Shown: piece after piece, positions 10,135 to 32,588 of the stretch
How the letters are laid out: every line of letters starts with the position of its first letter
Position numbering within the stretch: position 1 is the first letter of the stretch
NCBI GenBank assembly: GCA_905182075.1
Contig: CAJIZS010000002.1
Span: 1-64,000, forward strand
From: an uncultured Methylophilaceae bacterium
GTDB lineage: Bacteria; Pseudomonadota; Gammaproteobacteria; Burkholderiales; Methylophilaceae
Reading direction: 5' to 3'
Length of the DNA stretch: 64,000 bases
Program-made: the position numbers and the translations under genes
The notes under the pieces: model-generated
Databases searched by the model: none
Told to the model about the DNA's origin: nothing
The model's input: the letters and a program-made list of their open reading frames with translations, nothing else

Positions 10135-10626
10135 TCATTTATCATCATCAGGATTATGTAATTGCGAAGACCACCATGCTTCCCAAGGAAAATGAATCCA
10201 TATATTGCCAGAATCTTTTGCACAATCTCTAATCCAATAATTAGGTTCAAAGTTACATTCGTTATTCCACCAAAGAGTAGCAAATCGAATATCAATTTTA
10301 TCAGTTTTACCTCGGCCATCAATATGATTTTGTAATCGAGCAAATGTTTCGCCTGAATCGCATATATCATCTACTATTAATATTCGTTTATCTGATTTCT
10401 TTGGCAAGTAATCTTCCCAATGCGGAAAATCTCTTAAACTTGCATGTATTGGTTTAAATGGTAAGTTTAGCCAGTGTGATATCATAACTGCTGGAGTTAA
10501 TCCTCCTCGAGCTATTCCTACTACTACTTCGGGTATAAACTTGGATAAGACTAGTTGTCGTATAAGTGTATTGACGTCTAGTGTCATGTCTTTCCAGCTA
10601 TACCAGATATATTGTGTATCCTTCAT
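10135..10626 (-). CDS. Phosphoribosyltransferase
   Basis: The 163-residue protein contains the PRPP-binding signature ILIVDDICDSGETF (residues about 83-96), preceded by the pyrophosphate loop region VVGIARGGLTPAV. This is the fold of xanthine/hypoxanthine-type phosphoribosyltransferases, which use PRPP to salvage purine bases. The Trp-rich C-terminus (HFPWEAWWSSQL) is like the phage forms. It would supply nucleotides during infection. Substrate specificity cannot be read from the sequence. Confidence 0.8.
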   Translation of the reverse strand: MKDTQYIWYSWKDMTLDVNTLIRQLVLSKFIPEVVVGIARGGLTPAVMISHWLNLPFKPIHASLRDFPHWEDYLPKKSDKRILIVDDICDSGETFARLQNHIDGRGKTDKIDIRFATLWWNNECNFEPNYWIRDCAKDSGNIWIHFPWEAWWSSQLHNPDDDK

Positions 10627-11823
10627 GTTAATAATTCCTCTAATTCAGGTAGATAATCGGTTAATTGTTTGTTATATAATTTATCTTGTAATTTATAATT
10701 TACTTTAAATTCATCAAAAAATACAGGATCAAAGTTAATAGATAAAAGAGATGATATAAACGCATCTTTTAATTCTTTAAATTCGGTTCCTATCTTATTT
10801 ACTTTATTGATTGCAACTGCCTTTACATTATCAGGTATTGCATAAACACTTGTCCACTGAGGTTCAGATACGTAATTAGGGGATAATAGATCTAATTTAT
10901 TTTTGTATGCCCATTCCCAAATATTAGTAATATCTAAAATATTAAAAATTGTTGTTGCTGTTTCTACGTGGATTTCTTCGACATAATCTTTAAACTTGGC
11001 TACATTACTATTTACAGTATTCCAATTACCTGGATGTCTTATGTAATTGTATGTATCTCCAATTCCATCAATACTAAGAACAAACCAAGTTTTTTTAAAT
11101 TTAGATAACTCATTGTATAATTTTTCATTGAATAACGTTCCGTTTGTTGTTAATTGTACAATGCAATCTTTATTAATTTGTTTAAGTACATCAATAAGCT
11201 CTGGTATTAATGTAGGTTCTCCGCCAGTAATATTAAGTTCATGTAATCCTCCGCAGGCTTCAATTAAACTGGTTAAAAACTTTTTTTGATTGTTCTTTAG
11301 AGGCGATAGTAAATGCCTTATTATTCCTCCGATTGGTAAAACCGTATCCACACCTTCAAATGCTTCTTTATTTTCCATATGAGGCAAATGCCCAGCTTCT
11401 TCAATAAAATATTCTTTCATATTGGGTAACAATTGTTTTAACTTTTTTAACATGTGTTCCATTTAATATTAGATTTTTAATTTGTTCTGTTGTATATCCG
11501 TGCCATCCTTTATTATTAGCTTTATGAACTGCTAATTGCCTTTTACTTTTAATACTATTTTTTTCTTTCTTTTTACATATATCACACGATTTATGCCACT
11601 TTCCGGCAAGCATAGTTGCTCGTACATTTTGTAATTCGTTGCTATTCCAGAAAGATTGGAGGGAGGTATCTTGTACAGATGCGGGGAGGTCTCTTGCTTC
11701 ACAGCAATGACTTAAAAAACTATTAGTGGCTACGTGAATTGTTGTCCAAGGCCATGGACAAATAGTTGGACTAATATCCTTCAGGTCGGTCATTTTGCAC
11801 ACCCAGTACTGAATCAGCTTCAA
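10623..11823 (-). CDS. Radical SAM/SPASM-like protein, frameshifted and apparently lacking the CX3CX2C motif
   Basis: The N-terminal frame (11823-11401) reads CPWPWTTIHVATNSFLSHCC and CDICKKKE, typical of the extra Cys-containing N-terminus of a radical SAM subfamily in marine phages. The second frame (11462-10623) has LHELNITGGEPTLIPELIDVL (GGEP motif) and VLSIDGIGDTYNYIRHPG, core radical SAM strands. Neither frame contains the CX3CX2C cluster motif expected between them, so either a segment was lost at the junction near 11430 or the protein is cluster-less. It starts inside the end of the GroES-like gene. Confidence 0.65.
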
Positions 11824-12073
11824 TTACTCGTGTAACTAATTTTCTTCCGCTGGTTGCGTGTTCTCTAGTCCATCGACCATGTGATACTAACATATAATCA
11901 CCTGGTTTAATATCATATACTTCAGGGCCGATTGCTTGGCATTTAAACCAACGTGGGCGGACTCCGTCTTCTTTCATGTTATCATCTAACAGAATAACAC
12001 CGGCATCTTCGTCCGGCTTATCAATCATCTCAGCTAAAATCTTATCTCGCATAGCTTTTATTTCTTTACTCAT
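11771..12073 (-). CDS. GroES/gp31-like co-chaperonin candidate
   Basis: The 100-residue product has VILLDDNMKEDGVRPRWFK then AIGPEVYDIKPGDYMLV, which follows the GroES pattern of a mobile loop and a core strand (VxAVGxG...VxxGDxVL). Phages of the T4 group often encode their own GroES-like protein to fold the capsid protein with host GroEL. The similarity is of pattern only, so the call is moderate. Confidence 0.5.
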   Translation of the reverse strand: MSKEIKAMRDKILAEMIDKPDEDAGVILLDDNMKEDGVRPRWFKCQAIGPEVYDIKPGDYMLVSHGRWTREHATSGRKLVTRVIEADSVLGVQNDRPEGY

Positions 12074-12465
12074 TCTGCACCTTTTTGGTTTATGTCTTCC
12101 ATTGTTCCATCACTGTACTCGACTTCGAAATACTGTTCTCCGTTGTCCCTTGTTCTTGCTGTACGTGATACTTCTGTTACTTCTGCTTTAACATTCTTCT
12201 TTGCAGAAGGTGGTGTTTCAACAGGAGCACTATCTTTCTTACTTTCTGGTGTTTGTATACTTACTTGTTCCGTTACACCAGTAACTACGTTATCATTAAA
12301 TTTGTTAGCAATTTCTTCTCTAGGAATAGTTACTTTGTTTCTATTGTCAATGATGTCTCCACGAGCGTTCATGTTTAAGTTGCTTACTGCTCTTACTTTC
12401 TCATGTTTTGCCGCGAGAGCCGACATGTCTAATGTTTGGCCCATTGCTGTTTTTACTCTTTTCAT
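12070..12465 (-). CDS. Conserved phage protein of unknown function
   Basis: The N-terminus MKRVKTAMGQTLDMSALAAK and the block NLNMNARGDIIDNRNKV look like a conserved family of marine T4-like phages. The C-terminal half is low complexity, rich in Pro, Glu and Lys, ending with a small folded segment (EQYFEVEYSDGTMEDIN). 131 residues. It overlaps both neighbours by 4 bases. Confidence 0.55.
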   Translation of the reverse strand: MKRVKTAMGQTLDMSALAAKHEKVRAVSNLNMNARGDIIDNRNKVTIPREEIANKFNDNVVTGVTEQVSIQTPESKKDSAPVETPPSAKKNVKAEVTEVSRTARTRDNGEQYFEVEYSDGTMEDINQKGAE

Positions 12466-12899
12466 TTTAAGAACTCCTTGATATCAAGTTTATATTTTAT
12501 GCTATCTATGCGATGCACACCTAACAAGTATAAGCAATAGCTAGCTACACTACTACCTCTCCCTACACCTAGCACAATGTTATTTTCATTGCATACATCT
12601 ACTAAGTACTTTAGGAATTTTAACACAATAACCATACCTCTGTTTTCGTATTCTTGTATTATTCTTTCACGTTCAGTATCCGTATGAGAACGACATTCTA
12701 ATAAAAAGTGTTCAATATCGATGTTTTTATATTCATTGGGCATCCACCATTCAGTAGTTCTATATTCGTCTTCAGTTGATGCTTTAAAAATATCATTTCT
12801 TCCTTCTACACAAAAGTCCCAAGGTTGTACATCATTTAATAATACCTTAACTGCTTCTTGTTCTGTATAAATTGGATTTAAATTTTTATCTATTCTCAT
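12462..12899 (-). CDS. Miniature DnaE-like protein, first half (GRGS motif)
   Basis: The 145-residue protein ends with NIVLGVGRGSSVASYCLYLL followed by GVHRIDSIKY, which matches the conserved palm motif of bacterial DNA polymerase III alpha (GxGRGSAAGSLVxYxLGITxxDPxxY). DnaE is about 1,160 residues; here the PHP domain and everything after the motif are absent. The protein at 62292-62867 begins exactly where this one stops in DnaE order (DVDIDVADRDKV). The pair may be a split, compact C-family polymerase-like module. See findings. Confidence 0.7.
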   Translation of the reverse strand: MRIDKNLNPIYTEQEAVKVLLNDVQPWDFCVEGRNDIFKASTEDEYRTTEWWMPNEYKNIDIEHFLLECRSHTDTERERIIQEYENRGMVIVLKFLKYLVDVCNENNIVLGVGRGSSVASYCLYLLGVHRIDSIKYKLDIKEFLK

Positions 12900-13132
12900 G
12901 TACTAATTAGTTCATGTAACTCGTCATCGTCACCGGACTCGCTTTTTTCTCTATCTTCTTTTGCTGTTTTCTCGGCTATTGCCATATCAACAGTATCTAG
13001 TGTGATATTAATTTGATTAACAGCACCAGAATACCCACCTCCTGCTTGTTGCAATTTAGTTATAAGAGTACGTCGCATTTCAAGAAGATCTTCGACTGTT
13101 TTACCTGATAGATCAAGTAGAGGATTAAACAT
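12896..13132 (-). CDS. Hypothetical small acidic protein
   Basis: The 78-residue product has a helix (SGKTVEDLLEMRRTLITKLQQ), a Gly-rich turn and a second helix, then an acidic tail (KSESGDDDELHELIST). No family is recognised. It overlaps the DnaE-like gene by 4 bases. Confidence 0.5.
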   Translation of the reverse strand: MFNPLLDLSGKTVEDLLEMRRTLITKLQQAGGGYSGAVNQINITLDTVDMAIAEKTAKEDREKSESGDDDELHELIST

Positions 13133-13381
13133 TTAAAATATTAACTTCATTAAAAAATTAATTTCGTCTTTTTTATCTTCAGCCATCCATGCTGTAAAAT
13201 GGAATTCACCTCTGTGAGGCCAGTGCTTAATTTGTTTTACTACACCTCTAGGACCTTTCCATTTGCTCTTACCGAGCGTTCTATTTAGTAAACTAACAAC
13301 CTTATAAAAATGCTCTAAGCGAACTGTACGATCCCGGCTGGGACGAATAGCTATTACCATTGGAATATTGAATGGATTCAT
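13133..13381 (-). CDS. Hypothetical basic protein
   Basis: The 82-residue protein is rich in Arg, Lys and aromatic residues (TLGKSKWKGPRGVVKQIKHW). It fills the space between the methyltransferase and the acidic small protein without gaps. I do not recognise it. Confidence 0.5.
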   Translation of the reverse strand: MNPFNIPMVIAIRPSRDRTVRLEHFYKVVSLLNRTLGKSKWKGPRGVVKQIKHWPHRGEFHFTAWMAEDKKDEINFLMKLIF

Positions 13382-14049
13382 TAAATTCCTGCTCTTATTT
13401 GCGTATTATGATAATCAATTTCTTTTTGGTAGATAAGTTCTCTCCGATCCGTTAAATTACAAATCTCATCCATTGGTATATCTATAATAGGATACGATCG
13501 TTTAACCAATAGTGATACACCGACTCGTCGTTCTCCGTTACCAAAAGGAAAATCTACAATATCATATGTGCCATCATTATATATAGTTCTTAAATCATGC
13601 ATAAATTCTCTACTTCCATCAATACGTAACGTATCATGAAATACTACAATACCGGTCATACTTAAATTTGGATATATAATACTAAAATCATTTTTAACTC
13701 CTTGATACGAATGGCATGCATCTATGAAAGCAAAATCTATACTCGGATGATTTTCATTAATTATAATTTCAAATTCTGGATGTGTTGTATCAATCTTTGT
13801 TAATTGGAAATTTGAATAACCTTTACTAGTAAGGTATGTTTCGCATTGTTCTTTACTTGAATATGCTGGAAATTGTGTTTTTAATCCATGTGGACTCCAT
13901 ACATCATATCCGTAAACAGTTCCACCTGTTTGTCTGGCGCCTTCACATAGATGTATTGTTGCATCGGCCTGGGCTACACCTATTTCTAATATTACCTTAC
14001 ATTGGTTTAAGTGTATTAGTCCTCGTAACAGTGGTCCGTAATCAGCCAT
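13381..14049 (-). CDS. Class I SAM-dependent methyltransferase (CmcI-like)
   Basis: Motif I is present as VILEIGVAQADATIHL (residues about 18-33). The motif IV region FAFIDACHSYQGVKNDF and the following VVFHDTLRIDG give the DxH-type metal or substrate site of CmcI/TylF-like methyltransferases. 222 residues. Such enzymes methylate hydroxyl groups on sugars or small molecules. It is the second methyltransferase of the 1-14 kb region. Confidence 0.7.
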   Translation of the reverse strand: MADYGPLLRGLIHLNQCKVILEIGVAQADATIHLCEGARQTGGTVYGYDVWSPHGLKTQFPAYSSKEQCETYLTSKGYSNFQLTKIDTTHPEFEIIINENHPSIDFAFIDACHSYQGVKNDFSIIYPNLSMTGIVVFHDTLRIDGSREFMHDLRTIYNDGTYDIVDFPFGNGERRVGVSLLVKRSYPIIDIPMDEICNLTDRRELIYQKEIDYHNTQIRAGI

Positions 14050-14057
14050 GTATCCTT

Positions 14058-14476
14058 TTATATATCACCATCAATTCTGTTTTCACTACGTTCAGCAGAA
14101 AAATGTCCTTCAGGAAATCGTGCTTTAAGTTTGTCTGCATTGATTTGTAATACTTCATTTGGATCTACATTTAATGCTGTACAAGCATTTGCCCAATACC
14201 ATGCTACATCTCAGAATCTTTGACTAATTCTGATATTTTCTTATCGTCTTCAACTAAAAGTATTTTTTTTACTACTTCAGTAAATTCACCGCCCTCGGAC
14301 ACTAAACCAAATGCGGCAGTAATAAGTCTTGGTATGTTAACATCGCCAAGCATTTCGCTATTTGCTACAGAATGTACTTCGCTTAATCTGTGAGAAAAAC
14401 TAGCAAAATCTTTTGATTCTTTACTTGTAACAGAATCAACAAATTGCCTATATTCTTCTAATCTCATTGAAGCCAT
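14058..14476 (-). CDS. mazG: MazG-like nucleotide pyrophosphohydrolase, frameshifted
   Basis: Frame one (14476-14204) has LITAAFGLVSEGGEFTEVVK, the E-rich helix that binds Mg2+ in MazG-type enzymes. Frame two continues with DVAWYWANACTALN, the second metal-binding helix (ExxD to D), and ends GHFSAERSEN. A one-base change near 14212 separates them. MazG hydrolyses NTPs and may lower ppGpp-type alarm signals during infection. It lies directly downstream of the IscA gene. Confidence 0.75.
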
Positions 14477-14835
14477 GCAGGTTTATTTTCTTGTAAGGTT
14501 GAGTCTTGCTTAATGTTAAAACTAGTCGAGCAACCGCATGTTGATGTTGCTCTTGGGTTTTCAAAACGAGGACCTGGAGCGGACAAATCATTTGTCCAAT
14601 CTATAAGTAATCCGTCGAGTAACAAATGACTTTTTCTATCTACACATATTTTAACACCTAATGTCTCAAATAGCAAGTCTTTTTTTTCTGGACTATCAAA
14701 TGTAAGTTTGTATTCGTATCCGGCACACCCGCCTCCGGTTACTTCTATTCGTAGATATTTGTTAACTCCTTCGTGGCCTTCATCGTCGGCCATTCTAATA
14801 AAATTTTTACTTGCTTTTTGTGTAAGGTTAATCAT
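14464..14835 (-). CDS. A-type Fe-S carrier (IscA/SufA/HesB family)
   Basis: Starting at MINLTQKASKNFIRM, the 123-residue protein has the three conserved Cys: GGGCAGYEYKL and STCGCSTSF. A-type carriers accept clusters from a scaffold and pass them to apoproteins. The start at 14835 is preferred to the longer frame at 14925 because the extra N-terminus overlaps the ferredoxin gene and is unlike the family. It is the last SUF-type gene before mazG. Cyanophages carry related hesB-like genes. Confidence 0.88.
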   Translation of the reverse strand: MINLTQKASKNFIRMADDEGHEGVNKYLRIEVTGGGCAGYEYKLTFDSPEKKDLLFETLGVKICVDRKSHLLLDGLLIDWTNDLSAPGPRFENPRATSTCGCSTSFNIKQDSTLQENKPAWLQ

Positions 14836-15205
14836 CTTCGTCGCCTTCTCCTGGTGCTGGTGAAAAGTGTTCTTTCTTTTCCGGATCACCTTCATATTTT
14901 TTTGTGTGATCCCATTCTTCCGCATCGGGTAATGGTCCTTTATTTGTTGTAAGATTAGGCCATTCTCGACTGTACTTAATATTTATATCAAGCCAATATT
15001 TACGCTTTTCTTCGGGTGTATCTTTGTGTTTTTCAGGTATAATTGCACCTACTGGACATTCTGGTTTGCATACACCACAATCAATACATTCATCAGGGTG
15101 TATAACCAAACATGTTTTCCCCTTCATAGAAACAATCTACAGGACACACTTCTACTTATCTAAATATTTACATTTAATACATTCGCCAGTTACAATAAAT
15201 GTCAT
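14828..15205 (-). CDS. fdxA: 7Fe (3Fe-4S/4Fe-4S) ferredoxin, frameshifted
   Basis: A low-potential electron carrier. The N-terminal frame reads MTFIVTGECIKCKYLD; after two one-base insertions near 15130-15165 the sequence would continue VEVCPVDCFYEGENM, and the intact frame from 15127 gives LVIHPDECIDCGVCKPECPV with the CxxCxxCxxxCP motif. The C-terminus ends FSPAPGEGDEDD as in FdxA. The full-length corrected protein is close to the usual 107-125 residues. It overlaps the SufT stop and the IscA start. Confidence 0.8.
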
Positions 15206-15534
15206 GTATAATGATCCATTGGTTGAGGTTCATTCCACATATCTAAATGTGCTTGTGCCTCCTCGGTCATCATATGTTGTCCCCATGGCGGATCAAATGT
15301 AACATCAACATTGGCTGTTTCAATTTCTTTTACTTCTAGTACGGCAGTTTTAACCCATTGAGGTAATTCTTCTGCAACAGGACAAAACGGACTAGTTAAA
15401 CTCATTAATACTTTAACATCTGTTTCATTAATATCAAGGTTATAGATTAATCCTAAATCATAAATGTTTACTGGGATCTCAGGATCAAAAACAGTTTTTA
15501 ACTGTTCAATTATTTTATCCTTTAAGGAGGTCAT
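15202..15534 (-). CDS. sufT: SufT-like Fe-S assembly factor (MIP18/DUF59 family)
   Basis: The 110-residue protein has FDPEIPVNIYDLGLIYNL, the hallmark of the MIP18/DUF59 family, then TSPFCPVAEELPQWV with the reactive Cys and NVDVTFDPPWGQHMMTEEA. SufT helps maturation of Fe-S proteins such as lipoyl synthase and aconitase in other bacteria. It lies inside the SUF run, between glutaredoxin and ferredoxin, with overlapping ends. Confidence 0.88.
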   Translation of the reverse strand: MTSLKDKIIEQLKTVFDPEIPVNIYDLGLIYNLDINETDVKVLMSLTSPFCPVAEELPQWVKTAVLEVKEIETANVDVTFDPPWGQHMMTEEAQAHLDMWNEPQPMDHYT

Positions 15535-15820
15535 CTAATTCGCCTGATTCATATTGTTCAGTAATAATATCACACCCGCCAATGAATTCTTCATTAATAT
15601 ACAGTTGCGGAATTGTAGGCCATTCGGAAAAATCTTTAATTCCTTGCCTTAATTCAGGATCGGATAATACATCACGTGTTGTATACGAAGCATTTAAACT
15701 TTCTAGTATACTACAAACTCTAGCACTAAATCCACATTGTGGAGCCTCCGGCGTGCCTTTCATGTATACTATTACATTATTTTCTTTTATGTCTTGGGCT
15801 ATTTGTTCTTTTATTTCCAT
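15515..15820 (-). CDS. Monothiol glutaredoxin (CGFS type)
   Basis: The active site is PQCGFSARVCSIL (CGFS at about residues 29-32), with the cis-Pro loop WPTIPQLYI and the glutathione-binding GGCDIITEQYESGEL. CGFS glutaredoxins such as Grx4/GrxD bind a bridging 2Fe-2S cluster and hand it to targets. Length 101 is typical. It overlaps SufT by 20 bases. Family assignment is certain, and the partner proteins here are inferred from the neighbours. Confidence 0.92.
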   Translation of the reverse strand: MEIKEQIAQDIKENNVIVYMKGTPEAPQCGFSARVCSILESLNASYTTRDVLSDPELRQGIKDFSEWPTIPQLYINEEFIGGCDIITEQYESGELDDLLKG

Positions 15821-16042
15821 TATTGTTTCTCTATTGTATCAGGATAAGGCCAGGAATGTTTTGCAACTTCAATCTTGGACTCGGCCTCTTTCTTTTTTCT
15901 ATGTTCTTTTAACGTAGAGATATATTCACTCATTTCATCTAGATCATCATTTGTCAAACCAAGCTTACGTTTGTGGTGACAAGTTCTGGTGAGAATATAA
16001 CATTTCTTTCTTATTGATGAATATTTGAATTTTATTTGCCAT
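15820..16042 (-). CDS. Small charged protein in the SUF run, frameshifted
   Basis: The start MANKIQIFINKK overlaps the stop of the preceding small membrane gene (ATG within ATGGCAAATAA). After one or two inserted bases near 16010 the frame continues CYILTRTCHHKRKLGL then NDDLDEMSEYISTLKEHRKK and ends WPYPDTIEKQ, with its TAA overlapping the glutaredoxin start. The Cys/His cluster CYILTRTCHH could bind metal. I do not recognise the family. Confidence 0.5.
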
Positions 16043-16151
16043 CAAAATTTAATAAAGATAATGCACCATAAAATATTAACAAATAAAATAAAAGAGCAAC
16101 AAATGCTATTCCTAAAATCCAAACGATTGTCCAACTTAGTTTATCTTTCAT
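16032..16151 (-). CDS. Tiny single-pass membrane protein in the SUF run
   Basis: Thirty-nine residues: MKDKLSWTIVWILGIAF followed by hydrophobic residues to YLLIFYGALSLLNFDGK. It contains one long transmembrane helix. Its ATG overlaps the end of sufE and its stop overlaps the next start, so it is locked into the cluster. Function unknown. Confidence 0.5.
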   Translation of the reverse strand: MKDKLSWTIVWILGIAFVALLFYLLIFYGALSLLNFDGK

Positions 16152-16518
16152 GTGCAAGTTCCTTCATTTTCCAGACTAAATGGTTTAAGCCATTCGCTCT
16201 ACTAGGACTAAACACTAATCCTAATTGTGTCATTTGTTGTGGATTAAATGTACTTGCTTCTTCAATGGTTATGTTGTTAAAGATTTCACAAACCATTCGT
16301 GCGAGACCTTGCGTTATAATTGCATCAGCTCTTGTTTTATATTTATTCTCATGAATAGAGCACCATAATTTACTAGTACACCCTTTAATAAATGTTTTAT
16401 CTGTACAAAATTCTTCAGGTAAATCATTGCCTTTATCAGACCAATCCATGACATACTCATATCTGTCGAAATTATCTAATGAGTTTATTTCGTCTTTGAT
16501 TTCTTCAAACGTTGACAT
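16141..16518 (-). CDS. sufE: SufE-like sulfur acceptor
   Basis: SufE takes persulfide sulfur from the SufS cysteine desulfurase. The 125-residue product has the active-site loop IKGCTSKLWCS (acceptor Cys near residue 47) and the C-terminal PSRANGLNHLVWKMKELA typical of SufE. Start overlaps the last codons of sufS, indicating translational coupling to its partner enzyme. Confidence 0.88.
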   Translation of the reverse strand: MSTFEEIKDEINSLDNFDRYEYVMDWSDKGNDLPEEFCTDKTFIKGCTSKLWCSIHENKYKTRADAIITQGLARMVCEIFNNITIEEASTFNPQQMTQLGLVFSPSRANGLNHLVWKMKELAHER

Positions 16519-17649
16519 ACTTCAATTAACCCTTTTTCAAATATTTTTATATCCGACTCATCATTATAAAAACTTACACTAGCCCGAACAAGACCATTTT
16601 TATTTATTGAGCTTACATACGGTTCTGCACACAACATACCGCCTCGTACTGCAATGTTTTTCCCTCCTAACAATGTTGCAACATCACCGGCATGATATTC
16701 CGTGTCAAATGTAACTATGTTAGCACCCTTTGCAGTAAGTGGTATACCTCCGCCTGCTAATACTGCATGTTTTAATTTGTTTGTTAATGCTGTTTCGTAT
16801 TCAAATAATGTTTTACGCCCTTGTTCTTCAAGAAATTCACATGCCCGTTGTAATTGTATTGCACCTGCTATGTTTGGTGTACCTGCTTCAAACATTGCCG
16901 GACCTTCAATAAATGAATGCGTATGTTTTTTAACTTCTGTTATAATACCGCCGCCTACTTGATATGGTTTTAATTGTTTAAAATGTTTTTCTCTTACACA
17001 TAATGCACCAATACCTGTTGGTCCGTATAACTTGTGCCCGCTAAAACTTACAAAATCAATATGTTCATACTCTAAACTTGCTTATGCTTTGTGCCGCATC
17101 AATATGCACTAATGCACCATATGCCTTTGTTAATGTTAATATTCGTTTATATGGCTGAATTACGCCATTTATATTACCAATATGTGCAAAACTTAAAATT
17201 GTTCTATGATAACGCCCTTTTAATCGATTCAATGTTCTTTTCAACTGCACTAAATCAATTTCTCCTTCGTCACTTAAATCTATATATTCTATATCGCATC
17301 CGGCATGTCGCCAAGGTAATAAATTTGCATGGTGTTCTGTCCATGGAACTATTACAACATCTTTTGTGGATAAGTCTAATGCATTAGAAAGTAGGTTAAT
17401 GCTTTCGGTAGTATTTCTAGTAAAAATTAATTCATTTGCGTTAAATCCAGCAAACTCTGCGACAACCGTTCTTGCTTCTTCGTATGCATTTGATGCTCGT
17501 TGTCCTAGTTCGTGCGGGCTTCTATGTATATTGGCATTAAATTTCAAATAGTAATCATTTTCCATAACGACGTCAATAGGCGTCATTGTGGTTGCCGCAT
17601 TATCTAAATAAACAATGTCTCTATATACTGGAAAATAACTCTTGTACAT
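16485..17649 (-). CDS. sufS: Cysteine desulfurase SufS-like, one frameshift
   Basis: PLP enzyme releasing sulfur from cysteine for cluster assembly. The first frame (17649-17065) has YLDNAATTMTP, TRNTTESINLLSNAL, the WTEHHANLLPW His and VHIDAAQS, where Asp holds PLP. A frameshift near 17075 leads to FSGHKLYGPTG with the PLP Lys, then MFEAGTPNIAGAIQL and RGGMLCAEPYV with the catalytic Cys. Corrected length is about 388 residues, usual being 405. SufE overlaps its end. The call is secure; only the consensus is damaged. Confidence 0.88.
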
Positions 17650-18179
17650 GGTTTATATTTTGTAATAAGCGTAAAAAGTTGTCACAAAAACATAATTTAA
17701 TAAAAGATATTAAAACAGAAAATATTTCTTTAGATTTTTCAATACCTCGAGAATTCATATAAAAAAGTTGATCATTATCAAAAGTAGACATAGTGCAACC
17801 ATGACTACACGACACATCTTTACTATAAATCCAAAGGTCTGGATTAGAACTTATTTCGCTTGTGTCGTGTAATAGATAATTCTTTATATCTATTGACGCA
17901 CTTACTGCTTTTTGTTGTCTTGCTATTTCGATACCACTAGTAAATGATATTTTACCATTTTTACCCGCAAAATTTTTAGCAACAACATTTACATTCGTAT
18001 CACTACCACAGTTTATATGAATCTTAACATCGGAGGTGCCACCATTACATGTTATTAATCAGCTGGTATAAATTGAATGGCTTAACGTTGTCATTTACAG
18101 TTATAATTCACTATCATAGGCATCTTCTGCTTTAGCAAATAATTTGTCTAATTTAGAGTGATTTATATCCTTCTGGCAT
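17621..18179 (-). CDS. sufD: SufD-like protein, short and heavily frameshifted
   Basis: In the SUF complex SufD pairs with SufB and SufC. Reconstructed frames give NDNVKPFNLYQLINN, KIHINCGSDTNVNVVAKNF, then IDIKNYLLHDTSEIS and NPDLWIYSKDVSCSHGCTM followed by FYMNSRGIEKSKEIF. The SHG and FY(x)xSRGI blocks are diagnostic of SufD/SufB. The whole is about 180 residues against about 430 in bacteria, so the N-terminal helical domain and much of the beta-helix are missing. At least four indels are needed to restore one frame. Confidence 0.65.
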
Positions 18180-18183
18180 TGTA

Positions 18184-18907
18184 TCATAATGCATTGTAAC
18201 CTTGGGTTTGTATTTTCTTTAAAATATTTTTATCATAAGTTTTTAATACGCCATCTTTAATTACATGTACTTTAGTTGGTTTTATAAAATCATATAACTT
18301 AAAGTTATGACTAATTACAAGGGCCGATCTATCCGCAGTCATATAATCTCGTAATGATGTACCAATAGCAGTTAATGCATCTACATCTAATCCACTATCA
18401 ATCTCGTCTAACATTATAAATTGAGGCTTTAAATGAAACATTTGCATTATTTCATTTTTCTTTTTCTCGCCTCCACTAGCATTATAATTAACTTGACGCT
18501 TAAACCATCCTTCGCCTAACCCAAACTTAGTCGAAAGTTCATTATATGTATCAATTATTTCGCGAACTGAATATGTAGCATTAAGATGCTTTTTTGCTTC
18601 TTTTATCAATGCCATATTACTAACACCAGCAATTTCAACTGGAACTTGAAAACTCATAAACATACCATGTTTAGCTCTTTCATAAACTGGCATATCTGTA
18701 ATATCTTTATCATTAAAAAATATTCGACCTGACATGTCGTCATATTCTTTTCCTAAGGCTATTGCTGATGAAAGGGTACTTTTGCCCGAACCATTTGGTC
18801 CCATAATAGCATGTACTTCTCCTGCCTTTGACGTCTTAGTCAACTTAGCCTTTTAATTATAGTCTTTTCCCTCTATCTTGGGCGTGTAAATTTTCAATCG
18901 TTAACAT
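18184..18907 (-). CDS. sufC: SufC ATPase, frameshifted at its N-terminus
   Basis: ABC-type ATPase of the SufBC2D scaffold. Walker A is IMGPNGSGKSTLSSAI, the signature NASGGEKKKNEIMQ, Walker B FIMLDEIDSGLDVDAL and the switch His in LVISHNF. The true N-terminus MLTIENLHAQ begins at 18907; several one-base insertions between 18845 and 18885 break the frame before LTKTSKAGEVHAIMG. Corrected length of about 240 residues equals SufC. It lies between sufB and sufD. Confidence 0.9.
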
Positions 18908-18917
18908 ACTTGATTTT

Positions 18918-20348
18918 TTATCCCACTGATCCTTCAAGGGAGACTTCTAATAATTTTTGTGCCTCTGCGGCGAACTCCATTGGAAGTTTGTTTAACACCT
19001 CTTTACTAAAATCCATTAACTATTAAGTGCAACTGGCTTTTTCAGTATCAATTCCTCTTTGATTGCAATAAAAAATTTGATCTTCTCCTATCTTGCTTGT
19101 AGTGGCTTCGTGTTCAATTTGTGCTGAATTGCTTTTAGCTTCGATGTAAGGAAAGGTATGTGCACCACATTCATTTCCCATTAAAAGAGAATCACATTGT
19201 GAAAAATTCCGCGCATTTTCAGCACGAGCTCCTACTTGAACTAATCCCCGATAGCTATTTTGGGATTTTCCTGCAGAAATTCCTTTAGAAATAATAGTAC
19301 TACGTGTGTTTTTTCCCAAGTGTACCATTTTTGTACCAGTATCTGCTTGTTGATAATTATTGGTTACTGCAATCGAGTAAAATTCACCTATTGAATGATC
19401 TCCTTTTAATATACAAGAAGGATACTTCCAAGTAATAGCAGACCCTGTTTCTACTTGAGTCCAAGAGATTTTGCTTTGGTTACCTTTGCACAAGCCTCGT
19501 TTTGTAACAAAATTATAAATTCCACCCTTTCCATTTTCATCTCCAGGGTACCAATTTTGTACTGTAGAATATTTTATTTCAGCATCATCAAGTGCAATTA
19601 GTTCTACAACCGCGGCATGAAGCTGGTTTTCATCTCTCATTGGAGCGGTACATCCTTCTAAATACGATACATATGATTGCTTATCAGCAATTATAAGGGT
19701 ACGTTCAAATTGACCTGTTTCTTTTTCGTTAATCCGAAAGTACGTGCTGAGTTCAAGAGGACACCGAACGCCAGGAGGGATATAAACAAAGCTACCATCG
19801 CTGAACACACAACTATTAAGACAAGTCCAATAGTTATCTGCCATAGGAACGACAGTGGCCAAGTATTTTTTAACAAGATCAGGGTATTGTTGTACTGCAT
19901 CATTAAAACTCCCAAATATAATTCCTAGTTTACCTAGTTTTTCTTTGTATGTTGTTGCTATACTAACTGAATCAAATACTACATCTACTGCTACTCCAGC
20001 TAGAGCCGCTTGTTCATGGAGAGGTATACCAAGTTTTTCAAAATCTCGAAGTATTGCCGGGTCTACTTCGTCTAAACTTTCGGGGCGTTTTTTTGGACTT
20101 GCAAAATAATGGATATTTTGAAGATCAATTATAGGAACATTAAAACTCGGCCATTTGGGTTGTTGCATTTTTTGCAACATCTTAAATGCGGTTAACCTAA
20201 ATTTAAGTAACCAGGAGGGTTCATTATTCTTTTTTGAAATAGCCTTAATTATGGTTTCATTAAGACCTTTTTCAAAAACTTCACTTTCAACTTGTGTAAC
20301 AAATCCTGCTTCATACTTTTTATTAACTATTTCCGTTAATTCTTTCAT
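18918..20348 (-). CDS. sufB: SufB Fe-S scaffold protein, frameshifted near its end
   Basis: SufB is the platform on which SUF clusters form. The long frame (20348-19023) covers [40 protein letters not shown] and [17 protein letters not shown], all diagnostic. It then stops at [10 protein letters not shown]; three single-base insertions within about 40 bases hide the natural tail, which in the other frames reads [20 protein letters not shown] and ends LEGSVG. Corrected length is about 475 residues, normal for SufB. Its ATG overlaps the end of the superoxide dismutase frame. Confidence 0.93.
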
Positions 20349-20700
20349 TAATGATATCCCAATTAATAATTTTCCAAATATTTTTTAAATATTTTGCTTT
20401 ATCGTGTTGATAATCCAATGCCCAAGCATGTTCCCACCAATCAATAATCATAGCAACATTATCTACCATTTTGTGATTTTGTATTGTTTTAATATTGCCT
20501 TCAGTATCTATATAAATCCACCCAGAACCTTGTATGCCCATTGCTTCGCCAGCAAATTTACTTTTAAAATTATTAAACGAAGTATGTTTGCTCTTAATCA
20601 AGGAGAAGTTTGTACTTGTCCTAGTAGCTGATAATAAAACATTAAATAATACAGAAAATAAATTATGTAAAAATGGTTGCCCTATATTTGGATATTTTAA
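20323..20700 (-). CDS. Fe/Mn superoxide dismutase, C-terminal two thirds visible
   Basis: Removes superoxide, which destroys exposed Fe-S clusters. The clear part reads [20 protein letters not shown], then [20 protein letters not shown] with the metal-binding Asp and His, and [14 protein letters not shown]. The same frame remains open upstream through [10 protein letters not shown] (where family members have NHxFxW) to about 20700. The N-terminal helix with the first two His ligands is not recognisable and is either broken by indels or lost. It overlaps the sufB start. Confidence 0.75.
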
Positions 20701-21080: not shown

Positions 21081-21650
21081 TTACAGTTTCTTCGGCTTCC
21101 TTCGATGATATTTTTCCATATTTGATATACTCATTATTTTTGGAGCAGCTGTTGCCCTAATAAATGACCTTCCCGCCATGTTGCTTTCGGTTTCACGTAC
21201 TTCTACTCTATAACACCAAAGCCTTTCTGCTTCGCCTTGACCCCACATATCAGGAATGTATATTCCATTCATATATTTGTATAACATAGAAGAAAGACCT
21301 TCACATCCAAGTTTTGGTAATACAGTAAGTTTTGCAATACCACGTTCTTGTAACTGTTTATAAAGATCCATTTCTGGGTCGTCTTCTGCTACCAATAATG
21401 TATGATCGAATTGCTGTTCTAAGAAACTTTTAAGTTCTCCCATTCCACCATAATCTGCAACCCAATTTCTAACATCCAAATAATCTGAACCAAAAAAGAA
21501 TCTCATAGTAAAACTATAACCATGAATAACATTACAATGACTATCAGCCTTGTATTGTCTATATGCACAAGGAAACTTATCAACATATTCCTTTGTGCTA
21601 TTATATTTGTATATTCTCGGAGTTCTATCTGGGAGGGTAATTTTGCTCAT
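21081..21650 (-). CDS. queD: 6-carboxy-tetrahydropterin synthase-like protein (QueD/PTPS family)
   Basis: QueD makes the pterin precursor of 7-deazaguanines (queuosine, or phage DNA deazaguanine modification). The active-site Cys is in KFPCAYRQYKADSHCNVIHG, whose His residues (H and IHGYS) bind zinc; the third element is the YLDVRNWVADYGGMGELK and FDHTLL block. Length 189 is longer than typical QueD (120), with a C-terminal extension ending YHRRKPKK. No queC, queE, folE or dpdA is visible in this window. Confidence 0.75.
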   Translation of the reverse strand: MSKITLPDRTPRIYKYNSTKEYVDKFPCAYRQYKADSHCNVIHGYSFTMRFFFGSDYLDVRNWVADYGGMGELKSFLEQQFDHTLLVAEDDPEMDLYKQLQERGIAKLTVLPKLGCEGLSSMLYKYMNGIYIPDMWGQGEAERLWCYRVEVRETESNMAGRSFIRATAAPKIMSISNMEKYHRRKPKKL

Positions 21651-22240
21651 TTCTTTACTTCCTTTATGTTTAATTCTTTAAATGCTCTTTGCAATCCTAC
21701 TATTTGATTAAAACAATCATATAATGCATGATGCTTCCATGTATCCGGAGCAGTTGCACCTGACATCTTCATCATTGTTCTTGAATCTTTAACTTGCCAA
21801 AACATCCATTTAAATCCTTTACCAACTGCTCTATGTGCATGTTCTAGTATAGGATAATCAAATGTACTACCATTAGCCCAATAATGATCTACTCCACTAC
21901 AAAACTTATATAAACCTGTTAATGCTTCTGCTAATGGAACTCTTTCTTTTGAGTTAAATGCTTCGTCTTTTATATGCTCTTCTTGTTTTGCCCACCATTC
22001 CATTGTTGGGTCACTTATATCAAATTCGTCACCCTGTGATTCAACATCAACTCGAGCATAAAAATTAGGAAGCAATACCGATCCATCTGGGCACTCGGTT
22101 TCGTTGTTATCAAAAGGATTAAATTTTACTGCACCTATAGATAGAATCAAGGCGTTAGGCAAAGTGCTTAACGCCTCTAAATCAATCATTATGTGATCTT
22201 TTTTATTTTCAGTTTGTAATAGGTATTTTGATGTATCCAT
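21647..22240 (-). CDS. dexA: DexA-like 3'-5' exonuclease (DEDD family)
   Basis: The four acidic/His motifs are visible: IMIDLEALS (D and E), ANGSTFDYPILEHA (D), KDSRTMM (D) and HHALYDC (H and D). T4 DexA degrades single-stranded DNA and has this same arrangement. 197 residues against 227 in T4. The start overlaps nothing upstream; the stop overlaps the queD start by 4 bases. Confidence 0.8.
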   Translation of the reverse strand: MDTSKYLLQTENKKDHIMIDLEALSTLPNALILSIGAVKFNPFDNNETECPDGSVLLPNFYARVDVESQGDEFDISDPTMEWWAKQEEHIKDEAFNSKERVPLAEALTGLYKFCSGVDHYWANGSTFDYPILEHAHRAVGKGFKWMFWQVKDSRTMMKMSGATAPDTWKHHALYDCFNQIVGLQRAFKELNIKEVKK

Positions 22241-26391: not shown

Positions 26392-27559
26392 AAAAACTAA
26401 TCCTTGTTATAATTTTTATATTTGGTTATACCCAACTTGCATCACCATTACCAGAAATTTCCACTATTGTTATAGATAGTGCCCCAAAGAAATTATATAC
26501 AGAACTATATTCAGATGAAAATGGCAATCAGTTTATGGTTGAAATCTACGAGGAGCCCCAAGAAGGAAACGATGTAATTCACTTTAGGGCATTTAAAAAC
26601 GGAAAACTAATTAGCCGTAAGTCTCAAGCATTAGCAGACGGACACAATTTTACATTTTTTGTTGACGAAACAGAACAAAAATTAATGCGTGAAAATGCTA
26701 AAGAAGTGCTTCAAAATGTATTACGGGAGTTAATGGCAGAATCAGATAGGAAATTAAAAGATAAACTTGAGAAAATGTTTGACCAAGAAAAAATAGCCAA
26801 AGTCTTTCTGAAAAAATCAAAGTTGATTACCTGATGTTTCGATAGCGTCTGAGCAAATTGCAGATATGGCTAAACAACTTTCAAAACAAATTAAATCGCC
26901 AGATGTTTCAATAGCCTCTAAACAAATTGCCGATATGGCTAGATTATCTTCCGAAAATCGAATACTCCTGATGATTTTCGATATGGCAGATAAAATTCGA
27001 AATAACATTTGATGGAGGAACAGTTGGAGATATCGCTGAACGGATTTCAAAACAACTTAATGAAAAAGAAACCCCTGATAAAATAATTACAGATATGGCT
27101 ACTCGTATTTCTAAGGAAATTAATGAAAAAGAAACTCCTAATGAAGTAATTACAGATATGGCAACAAGAATTTCAAAGCAAATTAAAACACCTGAAGCAA
27201 GAGTAAATGAGAAAGATCTTGCTTTAAAACTAGCAATAAGATTAACACAAGAAGAAAACCTTATTACAACAAAGATTCCGCCATATAAAGAACTATTGAA
27301 ACAAGTTACTAAAAGTAATCAACGACAAGATTATGAAAATACTATAAAAATTCTAGACGAAGATATTGCTAATCGAACTCCTGAGGAACAACGAAAAGCA
27401 TTAAAAATTTCTGGATTGATGTCTGTGCTTCTTGGATCTAAAAAATTAAAATCTGCAATTTCAACAATGGAAAATTTCAATCTACCTGACGATCCTGCTT
27501 TGCGTGAAATTGAAAAAGCATTGGCCAGTTGGCTTAACAAACATTTAATTGTTGATTAA
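26388..27559 (+). CDS. Secreted repeat protein, frameshifted
   Basis: The N-terminus MKKLILVIIFIFGYTQLASP is a signal peptide. The first frame runs to 26834 and ends in coiled coil (LMAESDRKLKDKLEKMFDQE). After indels between 26820 and 27060 the third part (from 27067) carries repeats of the type KETPxxxITDMATRISKxI with a 21-residue period (63 bases at 27068 and 27131). Earlier degenerate copies read IAxKQIADMAxxLS with a 23-residue period. A helical C-terminus ends ASWLNKHLIVD. The repeats suggest a helical bundle or adhesin-like rod exported from the cell. Function unknown. Confidence 0.55.
26826..27180 (+). repeat. Tandem coding repeats (63-69 bp)
   Basis: GATATGGC(T/A) recurs with a 69-base step (26863 to 26932) and, further on, GAAAC(C/T)CCT...GATATGGC recurs with a 63-base step (27068 to 27131). 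The repeats lie within the secreted protein and explain why indels here are hard to resolve. Confidence 0.65.
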
Positions 27560-27864
27560 CTCATCTCATTAACTATTGTAAAGACATAGTTGTCCATATC
27601 TTCTGTTAATTCAAATTGGCATCCTAATCGAGAATCATCGTACCGAGTTAATGCATATGCTTCAAGTGTTTCGTCTTCTTCTTTGTTTAAACGCAAATAT
27701 TGTAAATCAGGGGCCCTAACATGGCAAGTTGCACAATCGCAACATCCACCGCAAATACCTACTCCGTCATCTAGATTATTGTCTATAAGAGTTTTTAATA
27801 GAGTTTGTCCGGGTGTAAAATCTATTAAATGTTTTTTATTTTCTTTATCAATTATTGTTATCAT
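27556..27864 (-). CDS. 2Fe-2S ferredoxin (adrenodoxin/Isc Fdx type)
   Basis: Electron carrier. Ligand Cys lie in GVGICGGCCDCATCHVRAP (three of four) and SRLGCQFEL (the fourth), with the usual C-terminal DNYVFTIVN. 102 residues fits the family. An extra Cys (GCCDC) is unusual. Its start overlaps the amidinotransferase end, and the ferredoxin-NADP reductase lies just upstream, so reductase and ferredoxin form a natural pair. It converges with the plus-strand repeat gene. Confidence 0.85.
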   Translation of the reverse strand: MITIIDKENKKHLIDFTPGQTLLKTLIDNNLDDGVGICGGCCDCATCHVRAPDLQYLRLNKEEDETLEAYALTRYDDSRLGCQFELTEDMDNYVFTIVNEMS

Positions 27865-28869
27865 GTTTCCTTACTAAATCACAGGTTATGCAATGTAGTC
27901 CTTGATCGAAGAACCATCTATGCCGAAAAGGTACTGTTATAAGCTCGTGACCTTCTTGTTCAACCCAAGGTTTTTCATAGTCTTTAACATTGATGATAAG
28001 TTGTATTTTGATCTTAAAATTCTTAAGAATTGATTTGAGGTACAGCTATCATTCCTAAAATTATCATCAATTAAACTTGCTACTTCCTTAGGATTATCTC
28101 CATTATAACCGAATATATCCCATCTATTGTTAGTTAATGCTCGTAATGTCTCGTCAATCTGTTCTGGCGGGTCTTCTGAATAATATCTTGGGTCAGCATT
28201 GAATCCATACTTATCGCAAAAAATATGCTTCCAGCCAGGAAATGTTTCATTAATAAGAGTTTGTTCTATGTCATTATTAGCATATACAACAAGTCCTTCT
28301 CTTAATGTAGCCATGCGAGCATCTACATGCCCTTCAACATCTGTGCGTACATATTCGCTATCGGGTAGCATATCTTTTAAACGTTCTAATTCGTACTCGC
28401 TAATTTCGTTACCAATAATTAATCTATCATTGCATCTAAAAATACAAGGTAAATGAACTGGTTGTAGTTGCGTATCCTGTAGATGAATAATATCATTATC
28501 TATAAAGTTTTCCCACGGCTGTCCAGCCAACGAATCTGGTCCAGCAATAACCGTGTCCTTGTAAACAAAGAGATCATTTCTTGGTGATATAGGAGCAATT
28601 TCTGTATCACCTGTTTTCCATCTTCTAACTTGTTCTTCTCTAATCAATTCCCAATCCGGCCTTATAACCTGAACACCGTGCTGTTCTAAAACATATTGAA
28701 TATTATCAAGGTCTTCTTCTGTCTCTTGGGCAATTTTCATTAACCATGGTCTTATAGGATCAAATTTGCTGTAATCTAGTATTACTTTTAATGTATCGGG
28801 TTCTATAAATCCACCCAACAATACAGTTTCTAACGGATCCCAGCCATTTTTAGAATAACAATTAATCAT
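27848..28869 (-). CDS. Amidinotransferase-like enzyme, frameshifted
   Basis: Related to glycine/inosamine amidinotransferases, which move an amidino group from arginine. The long frame has LGGFIEPDTLK, PISPRNDLFVYKDTVI and the catalytic-His region VEGHVDARMATLREG. A shift near 28020 leads to INVKDYEKPWVEQEGHEL and FRHRWFFDQGLHCITCDLVR, containing the catalytic Cys of this family (CIT). Corrected length is about 340 residues. It overlaps the FNR gene upstream by 8 bases. Product and substrate in infection are unknown. Confidence 0.7.
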
Positions 28870-29857
28870 GTTTTAATTTTTCTTGTAAGGCTGTACTTGT
28901 TGTAGTGTACATAAATTCTGGATCGGATTTATGTATGCGTCGATATGCTTCTTGAACTGCTAATGTGGTTTCGTGGAATCCGGATAAAATTAATTTAAGT
29001 TTTCCAGGATAATCGTTACAATCTCCTACTGCAAATATGCCAGGGGTGCTAGATTGGAATTTTTCAGTATCAACTGGTATACGTTTATTGTCATTATATA
29101 TATCTTCCGGTAATCCTTGTACTAAGTTAGCATCAGTAAGTAGACCGAAAAACATAAAAATTTTATCCGCTTTAAGAATTATTTTTTCACCTTTTCTAGT
29201 TATTGTTACAGTATTCTCTTTAATTTCTTCCGGTTTCCACCCAAAAAACTTTCTAATAGACTCAGAATTTTTTACTGCGTCAACATTTGCAGGTACTGCT
29301 TTAAATTTTTCTGATCTATGAATAAGCGTTATCTTACATTTATACTGTAATTCTAATGCCCAATCAATTGCTGAGTCGCCTCCACCAAAAATAGTAACAG
29401 CCTGATCTTTAATTTCATCTATATTTTTTACTGCAAAATTAACTAGGTTGCTGGCTTCGGCGTCTGCTAGTCCAATTACATCAGGACGTCTTGGTATAAA
29501 CTTACCTGGCCCGGATGCTAAAAAGATATTTCTAGTCATTAAAGTTTCACCAGTCGATAGTGTAACTGCATAATTTCCTAGTTCATGCCTTTTAACAAAA
29601 TCTACATCTGTGTCTAAAAAGAACGTTGGCTTAAATGGTTTTATTTGATCCATTAACGCATGAACATGTTGTTTAGCAGTTTGGTATGGAACACCGGGTA
29701 TATCGTATATTGGTTTTTCAGGATAAAGCTCAGCACATTGCCCACCAGGTTTATTATCTATTAATATGCAATTTAAACCTAAAAGACCTGCTTCAAAGAC
29801 AGTAAAAAGAGCAACTGGACCAGCTCCAATAATTACAATGTCAGATTGTTTTACCAT
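28862..29857 (-). CDS. Ferredoxin-NADP(+) reductase, thioredoxin-reductase-like type
   Basis: Transfers electrons from NADPH to ferredoxin. FAD motif IVIIGAGPVALFTVFEAGLL, then PGGQCAELYPEKPIYDIPG as in YumC-type FNRs, NADP motif VTIFGGGDSAIDWALEL with RSEKFKA, and the C-terminal FAVGDCNDYPGKLKLIL. The CxxC of thioredoxin reductases is absent, as expected for FNR. 331 residues. It lies just upstream of the amidinotransferase and the 2Fe-2S ferredoxin on the same transcript. Confidence 0.88.
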   Translation of the reverse strand: MVKQSDIVIIGAGPVALFTVFEAGLLGLNCILIDNKPGGQCAELYPEKPIYDIPGVPYQTAKQHVHALMDQIKPFKPTFFLDTDVDFVKRHELGNYAVTLSTGETLMTRNIFLASGPGKFIPRRPDVIGLADAEASNLVNFAVKNIDEIKDQAVTIFGGGDSAIDWALELQYKCKITLIHRSEKFKAVPANVDAVKNSESIRKFFGWKPEEIKENTVTITRKGEKIILKADKIFMFFGLLTDANLVQGLPEDIYNDNKRIPVDTEKFQSSTPGIFAVGDCNDYPGKLKLILSGFHETTLAVQEAYRRIHKSDPEFMYTTTSTALQEKLKHD

Positions 29858-29910
29858 TATTCTTTCTTCTTCATCTTTGATTCTTTTCTCATCAAGAATT
29901 CTGGCTTCAA

Positions 29911-30102
29911 TTATTTTTTAGTTCTAGTTGGAAATCTACTAATAGCATCCAGCATCCTTTCTTTGTCTAAGTCCGGTACATCTCTATTAGGTATGTAACA
30001 GTTCTTACACATCATATTACATCTGTGTGTAACATCTATAATCACATCATGGAAATGATTATCTTCTGGTTCGAGTTCGTAGTAATTCATATTATCATTC
30101 AT
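29911..30102 (-). pseudogene. Radical SAM N-terminal fragment
   Basis: The 63-residue frame reads HDVIIDVTHRCNMMCKNCYI with a perfect CX3CX2C motif, then ends at SRFPTRTKK. Radical SAM proteins need about 200 residues for the barrel, and no continuation is visible in any frame before the FNR gene 50 bases on. A truncated relic is the simplest reading; a functional mini-protein is unlikely. Confidence 0.65.
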
Positions 30103-30110
30103 ACTACTAT

Positions 30111-30779
30111 TTAGTTAGACTTACGAATACCCATTATTAAATTTTGATTTACAAAAAATGGATATATCATATAATGCTGTATATAAAATTCTAAATGGCC
30201 AGAAGGAAAAGGTGAGAACTTGATTCCAATTTTCTGTTCTAATTGTCTTTGTGAAAGTACCATAGTTCGTTGAATATATCCAGTTGTAGTAATATATGAA
30301 AACCCTATTTCATAACACCTATCAGGCGTTAGATATAAGTCCGAGTCCATAAATGAAAGCGTATCAGGAGTGTTTAGAATTACTTCTGAGTGGAACATAT
30401 TAATAAGCGAAACCTCAGTTACATTACGTACTTGAAACTCAGGTAATTTATCTAAAAAATATGTGTTAAGAGGGCCTATAGTTTGATATAAAATGCTATT
30501 ATCTATTTGTCCAATTGTCCACTTTCCAAAATTAGGGTGGCAGTACTGATCTTTTGTACATACTATGTTATGTGCTGAGAAAATCTCATTAATTTCATCA
30601 AATTCTGAATTGCCAGCTTCGGTAGTTTCGATTCCGTTTCGTTTTCCAATACGTGATGGGGGCCAGGTAGGAAAATTATAGTGTAAATCTGTTTGATAAT
30701 TAAAACTCTTTTGTTTACTGGCCTGTTTACCGCAAGTAAAATATATTATTAAATTGTTAAGATATTCGCGACTATTCAT
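30111..30779 (-). CDS. Hypothetical protein
   Basis: Start placed at MNSREYLNNLIIYFTCGKQA (30779), because the longer start at 30815 would sit inside the Hsp20 terminator hairpin. The 222-residue product has FPTWPPSRIGKRNGIETTEA and SFMDSDLYLTPDRCYEIGFS. DxDLYLTPDR could be a metal or sugar-nucleotide site but I do not recognise the family. Confidence 0.55.
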   Translation of the reverse strand: MNSREYLNNLIIYFTCGKQASKQKSFNYQTDLHYNFPTWPPSRIGKRNGIETTEAGNSEFDEINEIFSAHNIVCTKDQYCHPNFGKWTIGQIDNSILYQTIGPLNTYFLDKLPEFQVRNVTEVSLINMFHSEVILNTPDTLSFMDSDLYLTPDRCYEIGFSYITTTGYIQRTMVLSQRQLEQKIGIKFSPFPSGHLEFYIQHYMIYPFFVNQNLIMGIRKSN

Positions 30780-30788
30780 AATAGATAA

Positions 30789-30816
30789 AGTGGGGGCTTC
30801 TCTCCATGCCCCCACT
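30789..30816 (-). terminator. Hairpin terminator after hsp20
   Basis: Perfect 9-bp GC-rich inverted repeat (AGTGGGGGC / GCCCCCACT) with a 10-base loop, 10 bases after the hsp20 stop on the minus strand, followed by TTAT only. A strong hairpin with a weak U-tract. Confidence 0.65.
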
Positions 30817-30825
30817 GAAAAAATG

Positions 30826-31290
30826 TTAATTGACTACGATAGGAATTTCCTTAGGCTTTTCTTCCTCAGGTAATTCTTGTTCTAATTCAATAGACAGCAT
30901 GCCATTTTTAAGATTTGCATTCTTAACTTGCACATGCGGACCTAAACGAAAAGATCTGTCAAAAGAACGATTAGCAATACCATGATACTTAAATTGCGCG
31001 GCGTGTAAGTTTTCCTTGTGGCCGTGTGCATTAGCGTTACCTTTAACTGAAAGAGTACGTTCTGTTTGTGTGACCTTAATGTCGTCTTCTCCGAAGCCTG
31101 CAATAGCTATCGAAATCAGCCATTTACCTGGATCGGTTTCTTCGATATTGTATGGCGGATATGATGTGGATGAACCAGCAAATGTGTTAGAGAACTGTTC
31201 TAAGTCTCCGAACATTCGATCCATACCTACTGTAAATGGTTTTAATGAGTGTAAGAAATCGTTAAGATTTCCGGTGTGAATTCTAGTCAT
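30826..31290 (-). CDS. Small heat shock protein (Hsp20/alpha-crystallin)
   Basis: ATP-independent holdase chaperone. The alpha-crystallin domain spans roughly residues 45-140: KWLISIAIAGFGEDDIKVTQ, LSVKGNANAHGH, RSFRLGPHVQVKNANLKNGM with the conserved A-x-x-x-N-G-(M/V)-L, and the C-terminal IPIV tail anchor. 154 residues is normal. Hsp20 genes are frequent in T4-like marine phages and may aid capsid assembly. It has its own sigma70-like promoter and a structured leader. Confidence 0.92.
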   Translation of the reverse strand: MTRIHTGNLNDFLHSLKPFTVGMDRMFGDLEQFSNTFAGSSTSYPPYNIEETDPGKWLISIAIAGFGEDDIKVTQTERTLSVKGNANAHGHKENLHAAQFKYHGIANRSFDRSFRLGPHVQVKNANLKNGMLSIELEQELPEEEKPKEIPIVVN

Positions 31291-31415
31291 AATATTCTCC
31301 TATATAGCAAGAATTACTAAATTTGAGATGAACCAACATTGGTCTCACCTCTGGTACAAGTGTACCGAACTCATAATTGGATCGACAATACGTCCGTATC
31401 ACTTACATTATGAAT
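31291..31415 (-). promoter_or_regulatory. Structured 5' leader of hsp20, possible RNA thermometer
   Basis: The approximately 125-base untranslated leader contains two hairpins on the minus strand: GGTACACTTGTACC (around 31360-31373) and the imperfect stem GAGGTGAGACCAA / TTGGTTCATCTC (around 31325-31352). The AGGAGA ribosome-binding site follows. Long structured leaders on hsp20 genes can be temperature sensors; here this is inference only. Confidence 0.35.
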
Positions 31416-31421
31416 TATACT

Positions 31422-32587: not shown

Positions 32588-32588
32588 A

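Follow-up and report, generated by a model that had tools for sequence, protein, structure and literature searches.

Can a virus carry a whole factory for a cofactor, beyond single helper genes? This question is raised by a 64,000-nucleotide stretch of DNA (the window) representing bases 1-64000 of C2, an 89,521-base contig (CAJIZS010000002.1) in the assembly of an uncultured Methylophilaceae bacterium (GCA_905182075.1), in which a ten-gene set built around the SUF system for iron-sulfur (Fe-S) cluster assembly lies on the minus strand at 14464-20601, each gene matching its family by Pfam profile. A reading of the letters alone (the sequence-only reading) had proposed that phage DNA here carries an almost complete SUF operon whose SufD is reduced, and this proposal stands, as evidenced by phage hallmark genes on C2, by the matching gene order of an independent viral contig and by other contigs bearing SUF genes together with gp23, terminase or both. 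Based on the genes and their order, the phage context, the conserved residues, the predicted fold of the short SufD and low ratios of nonsynonymous to synonymous substitution (dN/dS), we consider it probable that the segment is the SUF operon of a T4-like phage, making Fe-S clusters in the infected cell.

C2 shares its bin with a bacterial contig of 1.02 Mb (C1), on which the single 16S gene found is located. C2 itself carries a terminase large subunit, a tail sheath, two tail tubes and a head-tail adaptor, in addition to replication genes for a UvsX-like recombinase, a single-strand binding protein, a helicase, a primase and a DnaB-like helicase; the terminase, sheath and tubes are hallmarks that the phage assignment led one to expect on the full contig. 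While the tail sheath profile PF04984 gave three weak matches, none above cut-off, PHROGs do detect a sheath on C2. A search of the C2 fragment did not find gp23, and the label "T4-like" therefore rests on the other C2 genes and on relatives. Being genes of host-type metabolism carried by a phage, the SUF genes are candidate auxiliary metabolic genes. A guide to the locus is L006 (IMGVR_UViG_3300025131_006800, 49 kb), an independent IMG/VR contig with unbroken SUF frames (SufB 477 aa, SufC 236, SufD 193, SufS 378, SufE 130, FdxA 126) in the order and with the flanks of the window, sharing ClpS, exonuclease, QueD-like gene, SUF set, SufT, FdxA, A-type carrier, MazG-like and polymerase-like genes in the same succession. 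Neither superoxide dismutase nor glutaredoxin was seen in the L006 stretch examined, a radical SAM gene occupying the place of the window's glutaredoxin; glutaredoxin is present in the viral loci L008 and L040, and superoxide dismutase in L020, where a two-domain form directly precedes sufB.

Reading down from 20601, the set opens with the C-terminal domain of an Fe/Mn superoxide dismutase (20323-20601; PF02777 Sod_Fe_C, 8.6e-21; N-terminal domain out of frame), followed by sufB (18921-20348; PF01458 SUFBD_core, 1.3e-74; open frame 19023-20348, with similarity running to 18921 past stops), to which residues 2-477 of L006 SufB align over 20351-18921 at 78%, the ATPase gene sufC (18184-18843; PF00005 ABC_tran, 3.5e-17; N-terminus out of frame; 74% against L006 SufC residues 27-236), a short, interrupted sufD (17624-18142; PF01458, 5.4e-21 on 17624-18058, the C-terminal half of the SUFBD core; 39% against L006 SufD residues 22-193) and the cysteine desulfurase gene sufS (16485-17649), split into two frames at 17065-17649 and 16485-16895 (PF00266 Aminotran_5, 2.4e-46 and 1.4e-22), in both of which L006 SufS aligns. 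Beyond these come the sulfur acceptor gene sufE (16141-16518; PF02657, 4.9e-22), small frames, a monothiol glutaredoxin (15515-15820; PF00462, 4.2e-21) whose CGFS motif was read off the translation, a sufT-like DUF59 gene (15202-15534; PF01883 FeS_assembly_P, 4.5e-19), an FdxA-type ferredoxin interrupted in its N-terminal part (14828-15205; DUF3470, 2.3e-12, and Fer4, 3.1e-7; 71% for L006 FdxA against 15205-14831) and an A-type Fe-S carrier of IscA/SufA/ErpA type with its three cysteines kept (14464-14835; PF01521 Fe-S_biosyn, 1.3e-11). All genes named in the sequence-only reading are present where it had placed them and match family profiles; as corrections to its list, SufS occupies two frames, and SufB, SufC, SufD, FdxA and the dismutase are broken.

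The arrangement recurs in other viruses. Relatives of the window SufB at 58-80% were found in 40 IMG/VR loci, and 26 of them (20 distinct at 97% SufB identity) have sufB, sufC, sufD and sufS side by side in this order. SufC was present in 33 loci, SufD in 31, SufS in 29 and SufT in 21, these counts being lower bounds because loci are cut at contig ends. Terminase_6N was found on 6 of the 40 contigs and gp23 on 4, which makes six different contigs of 103-340 kb. The 26 include three of them, L033, L036 and L041 (the first and last being near-copies), and the remaining three carry part of the SUF set in the stretch examined. No 16S was found in any of 42 records. When ten flanking proteins drawn from ten loci were compared with PHROGs, five matched phage families and those of L008, L027, L029, L030 and L044 matched nothing.

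To judge function, 14 positions were checked and found kept in the compared sequences: Cys254, Cys405, His433 and Glu434 of SufB; Lys40, Glu171 and His203 of SufC; His360 of SufD; Lys226 and Cys364 of SufS, with Lys226 lying outside the open frames of the window; Cys51 of SufE; and Cys50, Cys114 and Cys116 of SufA. Five of these, the four in SufB and His360 of SufD, are cluster-site residues. The roles of the checked SufB, SufC and SufD residues, of SufS Cys364 and of the SufE residue follow PMC6006206; those of SufS Lys226 and of the SufA cysteines are general background. SufB of L006 scored above the cut-offs of the SufB models (828 bits vs. 717 for NF008773; 605 vs. 346 for TIGR01980), and its SufC passed TIGR01978 (220.4 vs. 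212.8 bits) but not NF007134, the E. coli-type model (163 vs. 400). SufS matched Aminotran_5 at 2.4e-90, its best NCBIfam model being sufS TIGR01979 at 312 bits, under the cut-off of 475, with the Lys226 and Cys364 positions kept; SufE reached 73 bits with PF02657 (cut-off 27) and 34 bits with the SufE equivalog (cut-off 160), with the Cys51 position kept. Where measurable and non-zero, dN/dS was 0.05-0.46, with SufC and SufD much less conserved than SufB in this comparison.

Several observations weigh against a working phage operon. First, SufB, SufC, SufD, SufS, FdxA and the superoxide dismutase are broken in the window copy. Second, radical SAM genes, an obvious customer for Fe-S clusters, are no denser on contigs with SUF (4.4 vs. 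3.8 per 100 kb; 100 matches in the 2,298 kb covered, from 16 of the 40 SUF contigs, vs. 56 in 1,456 kb, from 14 of the 34 terminase-related contigs), and the idea that SUF feeds phage radical SAM enzymes is unsupported given this similar density with and without SUF. Third, the SUFBD domain was found in none of these 34 contigs, whose terminases have 68-77% identity and many of which are fragments; a related terminase was found at 80 loci, and the 34 are those on contigs of at least 20 kb. Finally, SufB occurs without the other core genes in several viruses (L009, L010 and L013; stretch examined). The sequence-only reading had called the set unusual; with SufB relatives in 40 loci it is no one-off, yet its distribution is patchy.

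The interruptions would be explained if, in the window phage, the operon were a decaying passenger, with a working set in its relatives only. We regard this as unlikely, since genes of the contig outside the SUF set are interrupted as well, as exemplified by the arginine-deiminase-like, MazG-like and radical SAM genes that are split relative to L006 and, by eye, by broken terminase, DnaB-like and ribonucleotide reductase frames; this shared breakage points to assembly error as the likely cause. In addition, dN/dS between window and L006 was 0.11 for SufB, 0.15 for SufC, 0.26 for the SufS piece and 0.14 for SufT, rough values with synonymous sites near saturation. Another reading is that the genes form a sulfur relay for a different product, such as a thiolated tRNA or a modified DNA or base, and do not mainly serve Fe-S clusters. 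SufS and SufE are general sulfur donors, and a QueD-like gene adjoins the operon, but SufB, SufC, SufD, the carriers and the ferredoxin serve Fe-S assembly and the cluster-site residues are kept, making this account improbable. We also give little credence to the view that the phage proteins join or displace parts of a host SUF complex so as to steer the host machine: the solitary SufB of some viral loci and its conservation far beyond that of SufC and SufD would fit, but B, C, D and S stand together in most loci, and SufB was found in none of 24 genomes of the genus binned with the phage.

The ancestry of SufB was analyzed in an unrooted tree of 77 rows, 31 of them viral, with a limited bacterial sample. 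A branch (98/96) sets 25 of the 31 viral rows apart from every sampled bacterium, and SufB of the window, L006 and L007 group at 100/99. A SAR11 sequence groups with L028 and L039 (100/95), both of which come from contigs with gp23; L013 groups with Rhodoblastus (99/95), and L009/L010 and L012 lack firm placement. A single origin of all 31 viral sequences was rejected (p-AU 0.015). This tree suggests that SufB was captured at least twice, with one capture being old and followed by diversification in viruses. The notion that a bacterial SUF block was joined to phage sequence or misbinned, to which the binning of C2 with a bacterial contig and the noisy frames might point, is rejected as very improbable, given that gene order and phage flanks are repeated in the independent L006, that the viral side of the SufB tree is free of bacteria and that the records are free of 16S.

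Turning to SufD, the viral proteins measured 143-194 aa in 15 of 31, compared with 306-491 aa in 62 uncut bacterial SufDs, and the unbroken relatives of the window SufD have 193-194 aa, bearing out the earlier estimate of about 180 residues. The mini-SufD models as the C-terminal half in the predicted fold, with the His360 position kept; the 193-residue SufD of L006 scored 89 bits against a cut-off of 222 (TIGR01981) and is homologous to the C-terminal half only, not to a full-length SufD. Used as a query, the mini-SufD retrieved its own contig only. Judged by its sequence, the window set is a virus-borne, SufD-reduced variant of SUF. Of the minimal SufB-SufC-mini-SufD scaffold proposed earlier, the reduced SufD is retained, but a minimal system of the SufD-free type is not, as the half bearing His360 persists; a more fitting description of the scaffold is that SufB and SufC are normal and SufD is cut to its C-terminal half. 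The shortest of the 62 bacterial SufDs comes from a Pelagibacteraceae genome (L110:6141-7058), and because it has only 306 aa, the shortening may have begun in cells. With a natural half-length SufD, the part of the protein that is needed in a SUF scaffold becomes directly testable.

Among known systems, the E. coli operon sufABCDSE shares SufB (chain 5awf_A matches at 1e-182), SufC, SufS, SufE, the A-type carrier and the checked catalytic positions. It differs from the phage set, which resides on phage DNA, has a SufD of about half length, places the A-type carrier at the far end and links SufT, FdxA, glutaredoxin and superoxide dismutase. The SufD-free minimal system SMS (SmsB-SmsC) resembles the phage set in having a scaffold smaller than that of SUF, but identity with SMS was rejected: a SufD homologue is present, and the SmsB model gave 174 bits vs. 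a cut-off of 650, whereas the SufB models were passed. Single Fe-S genes are already known from marine phages (A-type carrier, IscU, glutaredoxin and PaaD in the excerpts of PMC5332604) and from viromes (sufE and nifU in those of PMC8940887, with sufE there lacking sufS); these are likewise helper genes in viruses, including T4-like ones, but the excerpts of both papers describe no SufB-C-D-S set. In the Microcystis phage MaAM05/PhiMa05 (MW495066.1), filed as a jumbo phage, sufB, sufC, sufD, sufS and iscU are annotated in a row; this cluster differs in having a full-length SufD of 453 aa and a SufB that groups with Nitrosomonas-type bacteria (100/99). Profile searches of MW495066.1 for gp23, Terminase_6N and sheath gave no match; the consulted text of PMC13157829 regards it as a jumbo cyanophage and describes capsid and portal genes in it, and that paper's main text, as consulted, has no word starting with "suf". 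If it is a true phage, it would be a precedent for a full suf cluster of another kind. The cluster (252786-273876, L046) adjoins guaD, pxpA, panB and panC. Within the literature searched, which left most subscription papers and bioRxiv outside and beyond which such a set may be in print, we found no description of a phage SufB-C-D-S set.

We infer the activity, make-up of the complex, expression, benefit and host as follows. SufS would draw sulfur from cysteine and SufE would hand it to SufB Cys254 and then Cys405; a SufC dimer would hydrolyze ATP and open the SufB/mini-SufD interface; and the nascent cluster would be held by SufB Cys405 and Glu434 together with the SufD His360 equivalent. The A-type carrier, SufT, FdxA and glutaredoxin may help to reduce and deliver the cluster, and superoxide dismutase may protect its assembly. 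The benefit is likely a supply of clusters for phage and host enzymes as host expression shuts down and oxidants rise. In the genus of the binned bacterium, IscU was found in 25 of 31 genomes and in 14 of 14 with completeness of 90% or more and contamination of 5% or less. Binning does not establish this genus as the host; were it so, a second pathway would arrive with the phage. We speculate, tentatively, that large phages have evolved their own SUF lineage that replaces the host ISC during infection and in which SufD has been whittled away until only its C-terminal half, holding SufC and the cluster site, is left. As some SUF-bearing viral contigs encode a TonB-dependent receptor and the binned genus has IscU with no SufB found, a virus could conceivably bring both iron uptake and cluster assembly. 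The receptor plug was detected on six of 40 SUF contigs (G006, G017, G023, G028, G036 and G040) vs. one of 34 terminase-related contigs without SUF, a comparison from which we claim no link, as the six include two pairs of near-copies and the contigs are of unequal length. Two of the virus-encoded receptor-like proteins lie near SUF genes (L011:8763-10433 and L028:7354-9165), both with the Plug domain and that of L028 with the beta-barrel too.

On one side of the window operon, a QueD-like gene and an exonuclease (21081-22240, minus strand; phrog_2389, 5.6e-31, and phrog_255, 6.8e-43) are syntenic in L006; on the other, MazG-like, polymerase-like fragment, radical SAM and phosphoribosyltransferase genes (10135-14476, minus strand; PHROG matches) are part-syntenic with it. 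Further along (27556-40396), frames resembling a 2Fe-2S ferredoxin, ferredoxin reductase, arginine deiminase, Hsp20, IF3, glutamine synthetase and a class II aminoacyl-tRNA synthetase were recognized by eye, plus a tRNA-Asn. Among the relatives, DnaB-like helicase genes lie near the SufB of L009 and L013, and an NfuA-like gene with NifU and Fe-S_biosyn domains directly precedes sufB in L012 (9378-9965). A single 231-aa frame in L020 (14098-14790) matches SufE and then SufT, as a SufE-SufT fusion, and in L022 (8236-11404), a gp23-positive contig of 243 kb, a gene for ribosomal protein L7/L12 sits between sufS and sufB.

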